Shown here piece by piece: positions 7,816-12,769 of a DNA stretch of 39,024 nt. How positions within the stretch are numbered: the stretch's first letter is position 1; the number at the start of each line of letters is the position of its first letter. Position numbers and translations under genes: made by a program. Source of the stretch: Flavobacteriales bacterium (lineage in GTDB: Bacteria; Bacteroidota; Bacteroidia; Flavobacteriales_D; CAJJDF01); contig JAHDBM010000019.1 in assembly GCA_020630395.1 (NCBI GenBank), positions 1-39,024 of the forward strand, read 5' to 3'. Below the pieces are notes generated by a model. The model was not told where the DNA came from and searched no databases. It was given only the letters and a program-made list of their open reading frames with translations.

Positions 7816-7871
7816 CTAATTTCATTTTAATGTGAGCTTAATTCGAGCTTAATTAGTAGGTAGTAATTTTA
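7816..7871 (+). promoter_or_regulatory. Putative response-regulator operator and promoter of the LRR operon
   Basis: Four boxes, CTAAT (7816), TTAAT (7827), TTAAT (7838) and TTAAT (7849), at exact 11-bp spacing, with the first 11-mer fitting CTAATNTNATT. A -7-like TAATTTTA starts at 7864, 15 bp after the last box start and 24 bp before the ATG at 7888. The close approach of the boxes to the -7 element is what is expected for an activating PhoB/OmpR-type site. Confidence 0.75.
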
Positions 7872-7887
7872 ATTAAAATAAATTACT

Positions 7888-8772
7888 ATGAAACCCATTA
7901 TAAGAACATCCATCATTATTATTTCACTTTGTTTCTCTTTCTTTGGGAGAACACAAACTCAAGACTCTACTTATTATTCTATTCAAGCAGCACTTTTAAA
8001 TCCGTTATCGGTAAAAAAATTAACGTTAGATAATGTCACAGCTAATTTAGAGACATTAATACAATTTAAAAATCTTGAAAGTTTAACCCTAATTAATTAC
8101 AAAACGAATTATCCACCAAAAGAAGTTGCAGCTGTAACTTGGTTAAAAAGATTAGAAATAGAGCGAAGTAATTTTGTTGAGCTACCAGTCACCTACAATA
8201 AGTTAGTTAAACTAGAAGGCTTATCTATTATAGATGACAGTTTAATGGATGTTTCAAATGCTTTGGCTGTATTTTCTAAGCCAACAAATTTTAAAGAGAT
8301 AGTATTTAATAATGTTTACCCAATGACAAGCTTTCCTGAGGAGTTATTTAAGTATAAAAACTTAGAAAAACTTTCCTTAAGAGGCGATCATATTACAACA
8401 TTACCTAATAACATAAACTATTTTGATAAATTGAAATTTTTAGATTTAGGTGATAATGAAATCGTACAATTACCATCATCATTAATAAACCTAAGTTCTA
8501 TTGAAACATTATTTATAGACCATGATTTAAAATTAGATGTGCCTCAAGTTAAATCGGTATTAATTCAAATGCCAGCTCTAAAAGAGTTACACTTGGAGGG
8601 TGCAGGACTAACACCAAATCAATTAGATATAACAGAATTTAAACAATTAGAAAAGTTATACATAAAAGAAAATAGAAACAGCAACAATGAAAAAGAAGTT
8701 GATTTAAAAATTAACAATTTAACATTTGAAAAAAAGATAGACCCATCAACTGGATTAATTGATATCAAGTAA
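7888..8772 (+). CDS. Secreted leucine-rich-repeat protein
   Basis: A 294-residue protein with a signal peptide (hydrophobic residues about 6-20, FFGRTQTQ around the cleavage site). It then has a series of bacterial-type leucine-rich repeats of about 23 residues, such as LKRLEIERSNFVELPV, LEKLSLRGDHITTLPNNI and LKFLDLGDNEIVQLPSSL. LRRs form a binding surface for other proteins; no enzymatic domain is visible. It is expected in the periplasm or at the cell surface. It is the first gene of a three-gene operon headed by the 11-bp repeat operator, and lies 20 bp before the next gene. The ligand is unknown. Confidence 0.85.
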   Translation: MKPIIRTSIIIISLCFSFFGRTQTQDSTYYSIQAALLNPLSVKKLTLDNVTANLETLIQFKNLESLTLINYKTNYPPKEVAAVTWLKRLEIERSNFVELPVTYNKLVKLEGLSIIDDSLMDVSNALAVFSKPTNFKEIVFNNVYPMTSFPEELFKYKNLEKLSLRGDHITTLPNNINYFDKLKFLDLGDNEIVQLPSSLINLSSIETLFIDHDLKLDVPQVKSVLIQMPALKELHLEGAGLTPNQLDITEFKQLEKLYIKENRNSNNEKEVDLKINNLTFEKKIDPSTGLIDIK

Positions 8773-8792: not shown

Positions 8793-10184
8793 ATGGAAAA
8801 ATTTGAAAGAAATACGATCGAAAAAGCATTAGCGTTAAATCTTAAGGAAGAAATTTATGGATCATTCTCAGAGATTGGAGCAGGACAAGAAGTTGCAAAT
8901 AATTTTTTTAAAGCTGGAGCCGCATCTGGGACAATAGCTAAAACAATATCGGCTTATGATATGAAAGTAAGTGATACACATTACGGCAAAACAAAGCGAT
9001 ATGTTAGTATGCCAAGATTAGAAAACATGCTTAGTGTAGAATATGAAAACTTAGTATATAACTTATCTGAAAAAGCTGATGAAACTTGTTTTTTTGCATT
9101 TGCAAATACAATTGAAACAATTAATTTTTTCAAAAACAATCAAGGACAGGGCTGGCTAGGCATTAAATTTCAAACTAAACCAAATGAAATGCCATCCCAG
9201 GTTATGATTCATATTTTATTACACGATTCTCAATTAAAAGATCAACAAGAAGCCATTGGTATTTTAGGAGTTAATATAATATCGCATCTGTTTTTAAATT
9301 ACACATCAATTGAGGATTATATTAAAAAGTTAACCTGTAATATTGAAACTGGAAGAGTAGAAATAAACTTTATGGAGGTTAGTGGTCCCTTTTTTAATAA
9401 AATTGACAATCGATTACTGGCGTTATTATTAGTAAAACATAAGCATACTAGAGCTGCTATGTTCGATTCAAATAAAAGAGTATTACAACCTTTAAATGCT
9501 CTTTATAAAAAAGATTTATTAATTGTTAGAGGAAGGTTTAGACCACCAACATTAGTAAATATTAACATGTTTGAGAGCTCGTTAGATTTTCTTGAGAACA
9601 CAAAAAAAATAAAACGTGAAAATATACTTCCAATAGCAGAATTAACACTTCATAATTTAGAAGGAACTGATGATAATTGTGAGATGCAAGACTTTATAGA
9701 TCGAGCCAATTTATTAAGCGAATTAAACTTACCTGTACTCATAACCGATTTTAAATACCATTATGAATTAACCGACTACTTAAACACTTATATCAAAAAG
9801 AAAACTACCCATATTGTGCTTGGAATTAATAATTTAGAAAGTGCATTTGAAGAAAAACACTACAGTCATTTAAATGGAGGGTTATTAGAAGCATTTTCAT
9901 CTTTATGTGGTAGTAACTCAAACTTATTGGTATATCCAGAGCGAACAGTTCATAATACGTTAAAAAAGCTACAACATATTGAAGTTTCTCCTAGCACGAA
10001 ACATTTACTGGACTATTTTATGTTCAATAATAACATACAAGATATCAATAATGTTAAAGAAGATGTATTGCACATTTTATCAGATGAAGTGTTAAAAATG
10101 ATTAGAGAAAGTAATGAAGAATGGAAGGAAATGGTCCCTAAACGAATTGAAACAATAATAGAAATTGAAAAACCATTTATTTAA
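8793..10184 (+). CDS. Conserved protein of unknown function with GAGQEVA and SAYDM-SD-YG motifs
   Basis: A 463-residue soluble protein with no signal peptide or membrane segment, the only plainly cytoplasmic structural gene in its operon. The N-terminus has a motif-rich block: SEIGAGQEVANNFFKAG, ASGTIAKTISAYDMKVSD, then YGKTKRYVSMPRLENML, followed by a CFFAFANT stretch and GWLGIKFQT. I recall similarly patterned proteins as widespread in bacteria under inconsistent or uninformative names, but cannot name a proven function. The glycine-rich start could bind a nucleotide or phosphate, but it matches no P-loop I know. It lies between a secreted LRR protein and an outer membrane DUF2490 protein, and its end overlaps the next start by 20 bp. 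Confidence 0.8.
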   Translation: MEKFERNTIEKALALNLKEEIYGSFSEIGAGQEVANNFFKAGAASGTIAKTISAYDMKVSDTHYGKTKRYVSMPRLENMLSVEYENLVYNLSEKADETCFFAFANTIETINFFKNNQGQGWLGIKFQTKPNEMPSQVMIHILLHDSQLKDQQEAIGILGVNIISHLFLNYTSIEDYIKKLTCNIETGRVEINFMEVSGPFFNKIDNRLLALLLVKHKHTRAAMFDSNKRVLQPLNALYKKDLLIVRGRFRPPTLVNINMFESSLDFLENTKKIKRENILPIAELTLHNLEGTDDNCEMQDFIDRANLLSELNLPVLITDFKYHYELTDYLNTYIKKKTTHIVLGINNLESAFEEKHYSHLNGGLLEAFSSLCGSNSNLLVYPERTVHNTLKKLQHIEVSPSTKHLLDYFMFNNNIQDINNVKEDVLHILSDEVLKMIRESNEEWKEMVPKRIETIIEIEKPFI

Positions 10185-11814: not shown

Positions 11815-12588
11815 ATGAAAGTGTATATTAAAGAATTAGGTTTGGCCGTATTATCATTATCAATAATAAGTTGTAATAACTCAGAAAAAGGTCAACCATT
11901 AATGAACGATATGGTTAAAGAAGAGCCTAAAACGTTAGCCAAAGAAGAATCAAAACCATTGGTAGAAGATGTATTATCGAAAGAACAACAGGATGCGCTA
12001 ACTCCAGCAGCAGTTATAACTGCATTAAAAGATGGTAATGAACGTTTTATAAATAATGATTTAACGGCTAGAGATCATTCAAAACAAGTACGAAATAGTG
12101 TGTTAGCTCAATATCCAAAAGCTATTGTGTTGTCTTGTGTAGATAGTCGAGTACCGGTAGAGGATGTTTTTGATAGAGGAATTGGAGATTTATTTGTTGC
12201 AAGAGTAGCCGGTAATTTTGTTAATGAAGATATTTTGGGAAGCATGGAATTTGCATGTAAAGTTTCTGGATCGAAATTAATATTAGTGTTAGGACATGAG
12301 CATTGTGGTGCCGTTAAGGCAGCAGTAGATAATGTGCAATTAGGAAATATAACCGAAATGCTTAAAAAAATAAGACCAGCTGTCGAAGAAATAAAATATG
12401 AAGGTGATAGAACATCTAAAAACAAAGATTTTGTAGACATGGCATGTAATGCCAATATTAAACATGCAATAGAAGACATAAGAGCAAAAAGTGCTGTTTT
12501 AAAAGAGATGGAAGAGAAAGAAGAAATTAAAATTGTTGGAGCAGTTTACGATATGGATACAGGAAAAGTAAATTGGCTTGATGAATAA
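11815..12588 (+). CDS. Beta-class carbonic anhydrase, predicted lipoprotein
   Basis: Catalyses CO2/bicarbonate interconversion. This 257-residue protein has the beta-class zinc and active-site residues C108-x-D110-x-R112 and H161-x-x-C164 (GHEHCGA), plus the ARVAGNFV stretch. Unusually for the class, it starts with a hydrophobic stretch ending in IISC, a probable lipobox with lipidated C20, then a charged linker of about 40 residues rich in E and K before the enzyme domain. It is therefore expected to be anchored in the periplasm or outer membrane instead of being cytoplasmic. It is a single-gene unit, with an operator upstream at 11737 and a strong terminator at 12651. Confidence 0.93.
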   Translation: MKVYIKELGLAVLSLSIISCNNSEKGQPLMNDMVKEEPKTLAKEESKPLVEDVLSKEQQDALTPAAVITALKDGNERFINNDLTARDHSKQVRNSVLAQYPKAIVLSCVDSRVPVEDVFDRGIGDLFVARVAGNFVNEDILGSMEFACKVSGSKLILVLGHEHCGAVKAAVDNVQLGNITEMLKKIRPAVEEIKYEGDRTSKNKDFVDMACNANIKHAIEDIRAKSAVLKEMEEKEEIKIVGAVYDMDTGKVNWLDE

Positions 12589-12713: not shown

Positions 12714-12769
12714 CTAATCTCATTTTAATATGAGCTTAATTTCAGTCTAATATTGATATATGATATTTG
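12714..12769 (+). promoter_or_regulatory. Putative response-regulator operator and promoter of the SPFH-cutA operon
   Basis: Boxes CTAAT (12714), TTAAT (12725), TTAAT (12736) and CTAAT (12747) at exact 11-bp steps, with the first 11-mer fitting CTAATNTNATT. The first 31 bases are nearly identical to the site at 7816. A -7-like GATATTTG starts at 12762, 15 bp after the last box start. Confidence 0.75.

Follow-up and report, generated by a model that had tools for sequence, protein, structure and literature searches.

Organisation of the locus

The window, by which we mean the whole 39,024-nucleotide stretch of DNA analysed here, carries on its forward strand a gene for a protein of 463 residues, read exactly from an ATG start to a TAA stop in the ORF list and its translation and present in one copy in the source genome. 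The gene begins 20 bp after an LRR protein gene and overlaps a DUF2490 gene. From the spacing, the LRR gene and the 463-residue gene are probably co-transcribed, and because they lie so close together any promoter would be upstream of position 7888. The features of this region are as follows.

7824–7854, forward strand: tandem boxes of 11 bp ahead of the LRR gene, a possible regulator site found by pattern search
7888–8772, forward strand: LRR protein gene, upstream of the 463-residue gene, placed with it by spacing
8793–10184, forward strand: gene for the two-domain 463-residue protein, stop codon included (ORF, translation, relatives across four phyla)
8793–9317, forward strand: N-terminal domain, residues 1–175, predicted CinA-C/PncC-like fold (AlphaFold2 models, VIA-align)
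9318–9503, forward strand: middle segment, residues 176–237, barely covered by structural matches
9504–10181, forward strand: C-terminal domain, residues 238–463, predicted NadD/NMNAT-like fold (VIA-align on the AlphaFold2 model)

Searches with the protein (P0001) came back empty in Pfam and NCBIfam at E ≤ 1 and in PADLOC and PHROGs at E ≤ 0.1. When 74 family members were scanned against Pfam, no single hit was seen in more than three of them (LisH) and all hits were weak. A preliminary description had called this a conserved protein belonging to no named family, and the exact reading frame, the empty Pfam and NCBIfam searches and the relatives in four phyla bear this out. A whole-sequence PDB match to polyubiquitin (single-sequence search, E 2.7e-05) was set aside, as it sums ubiquitin repeats and no individual stretch passes.

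Some members of the family are labelled 'nicotinate-nucleotide adenylyltransferase' or 'TonB-dependent receptor' in databases. One plant gene may join similar domains; literature searched under its locus name returned nothing. Nor did a literature search, whose scope mostly excluded subscription journals, return a title on the 463-residue family or on a PncC–NMNAT fusion.

Distribution of the family

A single-sequence search found relatives in 56 of 296 sampled Bacteroidota genomes, and these are concentrated in the window's own class (54 of 73 genomes, against 2 of 223 in the other classes). With a profile (A2), relatives were found in 44 of 145 Verrucomicrobiota, 69 of 144 Bdellovibrionota and 5 of 149 Planctomycetota genomes. 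These phyla were assigned from the record titles of three loci (L083, L122 and L096) and from taxonomy. A scan of named genomes gave at least 574 relatives, the best 80 of which were retained; these rows were gathered with peptide patterns that include parts of the conserved N-terminal motifs. A tree built with FastTree from 172 rows, of which 171 are different, groups the sequences largely by phylum, with eight label changes against a minimum of four. The Planctomycetota, with five rows, are scattered over the tree, and long branches lead to several sequences, the window protein included.

Plasmid and phage records gave no match in tblastn with the single 463-residue sequence, and IMG/VR gave two relatives, one of them full length. 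The latter (L195, 38% identical) lies close to the end of its contig, which is classified as viral but may be host DNA.

Two departures from the usual architecture were seen. A 1,850-residue open frame (L239:835-6384; genome G512, contig C404) contains the N-terminal domain without the C-terminal domain: profile positions 22–229 fall at its residues 1370–1628, the motifs SEIGAG, VHLRL and QQQ are retained, and a second, fainter copy of the domain seems to come after the first. To judge from this frame, the N-terminal domain may be a module that can also stand on its own. In the sub-group L047–L050 the C-terminus is shortened and the nucleotidylyltransferase motif strongly altered, and the N-terminal domain is fully conserved.

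Predicted folds of the two halves

The AlphaFold2 model of the whole protein, built with 74 family sequences, has a mean pLDDT of 93.4 and a pTM of 0.91, and the first 237 residues modelled alone with 51 sequences have a pLDDT of 92.6. When aligned by VIA-align with the CinA/PncC structure 6l19_A, residues 4–174 of the whole model give a Z of 16.1 and the N-terminal domain alone a Z of 16.6, each with 152 aligned residues at 2.9 Å. For the domain alone, all 15 Foldseek matches at E ≤ 0.001 are of the CinA type, and in VIA-align ten CinA rows (Z 14.5–16.6) are followed by two HcgF rows (Z 10.4) and then by nothing above 7.1. Foldseek with the whole model is in line with the VIA-align matches of the two halves (8aih, E 1.0e-05; 2a9s_B, E 2.2e-04). 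It is well supported by these models that residues ~1–175 adopt the fold of the CinA-C/PncC (PF02464) NMN deamidases. The yjjX, Maf, PelC and LptE folds, lower in the list for this domain, reach Z ≤ 7.1 and were treated as probably no more than common arrangements.

The prediction for residues 238–463 is also well supported, namely the Rossmann fold of the NadD/NMNAT nucleotidylyltransferases, with the predicted model aligning to 1nup_A at Z 17.9 (200 aligned, 3.4 Å) and to 2h29_A at Z 17.2 (174 aligned, 2.6 Å). Among BFVD predictions of viral structures, the best Foldseek matches were the phage protein A0A6J5RR79 over 439 columns (E 1.0e-13, rmsd 14.4 Å) and the Terrestrivirus protein A0A3G4ZJY5 over 347 columns (E 2.6e-07, rmsd 12.3 Å). 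Both superpositions have a high rmsd; they suggest that the two domains occur together in these proteins also.

The N-terminal domains score no better on a PncC HMM than shuffled or reversed controls, hhalign of the domain with PncC is not significant, a profile search of the PDB with the domain found nothing, and PF02464 has no match in P0001 and does not appear among the families listed for the 74 members. The apparent kinship to PncC is accordingly one of modelled fold, the sequence tests being negative. HMM-HMM and structure searches had been proposed as checks in the preliminary description; folds could be assigned from the models, whereas hhalign gave no significant result for the N-terminal domain.

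The N-terminal pocket

Since sequence similarity of the N-terminal domain is not above controls, the register of its residues with PncC is based on the fold together with an ungapped motif match that runs from the first strand to the LG/YG. In this register, from hhalign and consensus comparison, PncC AESCTGG...YSNxxKxxxLG lies over AEIGAGQ...YDMxxSDxxYG in the family, and the Glu and the phosphate-contact Tyr are common to both.

8871–8888, forward strand: EIGAGQ, residues 27–32, over PncC ESCTGG by this register, with Ile28 at the catalytic Ser
8949–8987, forward strand: SAYDMKVSDTHYG, residues 53–65, over PncC YSNxxKxxxLG by this register, with Ser60 at the catalytic Lys and Tyr55 kept
9210–9245, forward strand: segment of residues 140–151, with invariant His140 (90 of 90 rows) and nearly invariant Gln151 (89 of 90)

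Conservation was counted over 90 distinct rows, none gathered by the peptide-pattern scans, consisting of the best matches of each search and hand-picked weaker ones, with partial sequences left out. In addition to His140, the residues E27, I28, G29, G31, Q32, F38, F39, S53, A54, Y55, D56, S60, Y64, G65, V71, T106 and W121 are invariant. Positions conserved in at least 95% of rows number 42 of 166 in the N-terminal domain (residues 10–175) as against 7 of 223 in the C-terminal half, and, judging from these alignments, the N-terminal conservation is not due to chance. The three N-terminal segments singled out in the preliminary description are present at residues 27–39, 46–61 and 64–72, and the mapping of conserved residues that it called for places them where the family is most strongly conserved, within a dense invariant set. 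Its suggestion that they resemble active-site or binding-site motifs also holds, with EIGAGQ over ESCTGG and SAYD..S...YG over YSNxxK...LG. Both halves of the protein are under purifying selection as judged from codon comparisons, with a median dN/dS of 0.041 in the N-terminal and 0.055 in the C-terminal half for pairs 80–97% identical; 59 and 71 pairs respectively were usable out of 293, the remainder being saturated or beyond limits.

With the register taken from the alignment, the Ser31/Lys63 dyad of PncC (A. tumefaciens numbering) is replaced by Ile28/Ser60 in 90 of 90 rows and is thus absent, although the phosphate-contact Tyr58 is retained as Tyr55 in all of them. The putative counterpart of Arg145, at about position 148 in a tentative register, is variable (Asn in 42, Ala in 25 and Arg in 5 of the 90 rows), and the TGIAGP loop of PncC has no counterpart in the family consensus. 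According to PMC5384747, the S31A and K63A variants of A. tumefaciens PncC are inactive, and the phosphate is contacted by Y58, R145 and S48 of the other subunit. The Tyr and Arg contacts are supported by a product-bound structure from T. thermophilus (PMC4246079); as that account favours attack by water promoted by the Lys, the role of the Ser as nucleophile is not agreed, and the Lys is central in both papers. Because the two positions are occupied by Ile28 and Ser60, the deamidase mechanism as described for PncC cannot operate in the N-terminal domain if the register is correct. On the same alignment, the retained Tyr55 hints at a ligand that carries a phosphate, and so many invariant polar residues close together hint at either catalysis or very specific recognition, invariance by itself being no proof of catalysis.

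The C-terminal domain

Sequence links between the C-terminal domain and CoaD/NadD are weak but consistent. The family profile touches CoaD at residues 243–271 (E 0.013), and hhalign places RGRFRPPTLVN over the GSFDPxTxGH motif of CoaD at a low probability of 34 percent and the C-terminal end over the ISSTxIR...VP region of NadD at a probability of 5 percent, which is also low. On the CoaD HMM the C-terminal domains have a median score of 6.1 as against −1.3 for shuffled controls; the excess on the NadD HMM is smaller (0.9 against −1.5). PF01467 has no match in P0001; the best member on that model, L242, reaches 18.4 bits, below the cut-off of 21, and the other full-length members scanned with it gave no match.

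9528–9560, forward strand: RGRFRPPTLVN, residues 246–256, putative degenerate nucleotidylyltransferase motif whose last His is Asn (CoaD/NadD profile alignment)
10074–10094, forward strand: ILSDEVL, residues 428–434, over NadD ISSTxIR (hhalign with NadD)

Among 172 rows, position 256, which corresponds to the last His of the (H/T)xxH (HxGH-type) motif, carries Asn in 112 and His in 37. The Thr position of ISSTxIR carries Arg in 84 and Asp in 52 of these rows, and this second motif is absent from the window protein. The divergent member L240 retains ATFAPPTNTH and SIRSTMVR and, among the rows compared side by side, is the only one with a near-canonical ISSTxIR. Its seven PDB sequence matches at E ≤ 10 are all of the NadD/NMNAT type, the best of them (3h05, E 0.0026) being named both 'uncharacterized' and putative nicotinate-nucleotide adenylyltransferase. 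Since these motif residues are degenerate, ordinary adenylyl transfer appears unlikely in most members of the family.

Genomic context

A weaker box set similar to that at 7824–7854 lies at 12722–12752, ahead of an SPFH gene, and from their likeness the two sets may be sites of one regulator. A looser version of the pattern has 5 matches in the window, against an average of 2.2 in shuffles, and 23 in the genome, against 10 for a reversed control. Tandem boxes are the usual habit of OmpR-type regulators. The pattern fits an OmpR-type or shared regulator and is no proof of one, and the earlier assignment of the promoter to a two-component regulon is weak. The envelope context that had been read from the neighbours is weak as well: LRR and DUF2490 genes do adjoin the gene, but relatives of the LRR, DUF2490 and YitT neighbours occur at none of 120 other loci with a family gene, many of which have short flanks. 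At these 120 loci, relatives of the window's kinase are found in six and of its response regulator in three. In L242 and L243, both from Bdellovibrionota, relatives of the regulator (52% identical) and of the kinase are both located about 6–8 kb from the family gene, which may be chance or the remnant of a linkage.

Examination of gene neighbours across phyla, also proposed earlier, revealed none conserved beyond single lineages, to which the recurrent clusters are confined. In 27 loci a putative metallo-beta-lactamase-fold hydrolase is encoded within three genes of the family gene. Genes resembling those for MbnP and a MauG-type peroxidase are found just upstream in nine loci of one lineage (L031, L053, L057, L060, L064, L066, L068, L073 and L074). 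None of these clusters enters the functional argument. Forty-five of 114 family loci have no close neighbour on the same strand.

The source genome encodes CoaD-like and NadD-like proteins separately (above the PF01467 cut-off and named by their motifs), and it has one CinA match and one PnuC match. CinA/PncC is present in 291 of 296 sampled genomes, with or without the family gene, and the family therefore does not replace it. PnuC is present in 125 of the 296, but every one of the 73 genomes from the window's class has it regardless of the family gene, so its profile is uninformative. No operon partner or occurrence profile tying the family to NAD metabolism was found. Elsewhere in the window, at 11815–12588, there is a beta-type carbonic anhydrase gene (Pro_CA) with a lipoprotein-like signal at its start, and its product is perhaps exported.

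Discussion

Because of these predicted folds together with the residue changes described above, we propose, at what we judge to be about even chances, that the protein is a fusion whose folds relate it to two NAD-recycling enzymes and which now serves another purpose. The preliminary description could name no function and held that a clear match to a characterised enzyme family would speak against it. At the level of fold such matches exist, both halves having the predicted folds of NAD-recycling enzymes, whereas at the catalytic residues they do not, and there the earlier statement stands.

In the model that we favour, a PncC-like pocket would have been rewritten and then frozen within a fused PncC-type and NMNAT-type protein. 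The N-terminal domain, with the phosphate-contact Tyr kept, would bind a phosphorylated, pyridine-nucleotide-like ligand and act on it through a reaction different from Ser/Lys amide hydrolysis; we infer a new chemistry or specificity for this pocket. The C-terminal domain probably holds a nucleotide, judging from its modelled fold, and would be kept for nucleotide binding or for a changed transfer reaction rather than for ordinary NaAD synthesis.

A precedent, by analogy, is HcgF of the FeGP-cofactor synthesis of [Fe]-hydrogenase, whose PncC-like fold binds a pyridinol nucleotide and is the second-best match for the N-terminal domain (3wvc_A and 3wva_A, 128 aligned), clearly below the CinA rows. 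HcgF is thought to form a thioester with the pyridinol nucleotide through a cysteine (PMC9314073), whereas the family has no invariant Cys among the positions counted, and the HcgF entries seen have no NMNAT-fold fusion. Other domain fusions of NAD recycling, COG1058-PncC (CinA) and NadM-Nudix, are described in PMC3680494; unlike the present family, in which the PncC-like domain is fused to a different second domain, neither of them joins a PncC fold to an NMNAT fold.

The main rival to this proposal is that the protein senses or regulates without catalysis: as a double pseudoenzyme it would bind a metabolite of the NAD cycle and act through protein contacts. Such a role would account for a protein whose catalytic residues are lost or degenerate in both folds and whose halves nevertheless remain under selection, and it is in keeping with a family that adds to CinA/PncC instead of replacing it. 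However, a dense set of fixed polar residues in the N-terminal domain would be more typical of an enzyme, and there is no conserved neighbour or partner to regulate; we consider the sensor possible and on balance doubtful.

An ordinary bifunctional NAD-salvage enzyme, acting as NMN deamidase and NaMN adenylyltransferase and tolerating its active-site changes, would fit the successive steps NMN to NaMN to NaAD (pathway in PMC4246079), and L240 does retain near-canonical NMNAT motifs. We nevertheless regard this as improbable: the substitutions that abolish A. tumefaciens PncC activity affect the very positions (PMC5384747) that are Ile and Ser in all 90 rows counted here, most members have degenerate NMNAT motifs, and the genome already has CinA and NadD-like genes. 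Least probable, and by our estimate very much so, is a role in envelope stress or surface biology with the NAD-type folds as scaffold only, as the tight spacing to the LRR gene, the overlap with the DUF2490 gene and the tandem boxes upstream speak for it locally, but relatives of the LRR, DUF2490 and YitT genes are missing from the 120 other loci, many of them with short flanks, and other lineages have different neighbours.

Returning to a fused protein put to another use, a more specific and rather unlikely version is that Bacteroidia, Verrucomicrobiota and Bdellovibrionota have an unrecognised nucleotide cofactor or metabolite, pyridine-type or similar, and that this single protein is an enzyme for it. 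The NMNAT-like half would transfer or hold the nucleotide and the PncC/HcgF-like half would carry out a new reaction on it. If this were true, the protein would parallel, in fused form, what HcgB and HcgF do in making the FeGP cofactor.

A gene without a name, present in roughly one fifth, one third and one half of the genomes sampled in three phyla, thus gains a concrete structural identity, that of two predicted NAD-recycling folds in one chain with their active sites rewritten. The protein would represent a second reuse of the PncC fold after HcgF. If it acts on a pyridine nucleotide, standard metabolite screens could test it, and it may prove to be a missing piece either of NAD-related metabolism or of a new nucleotide-cofactor pathway.
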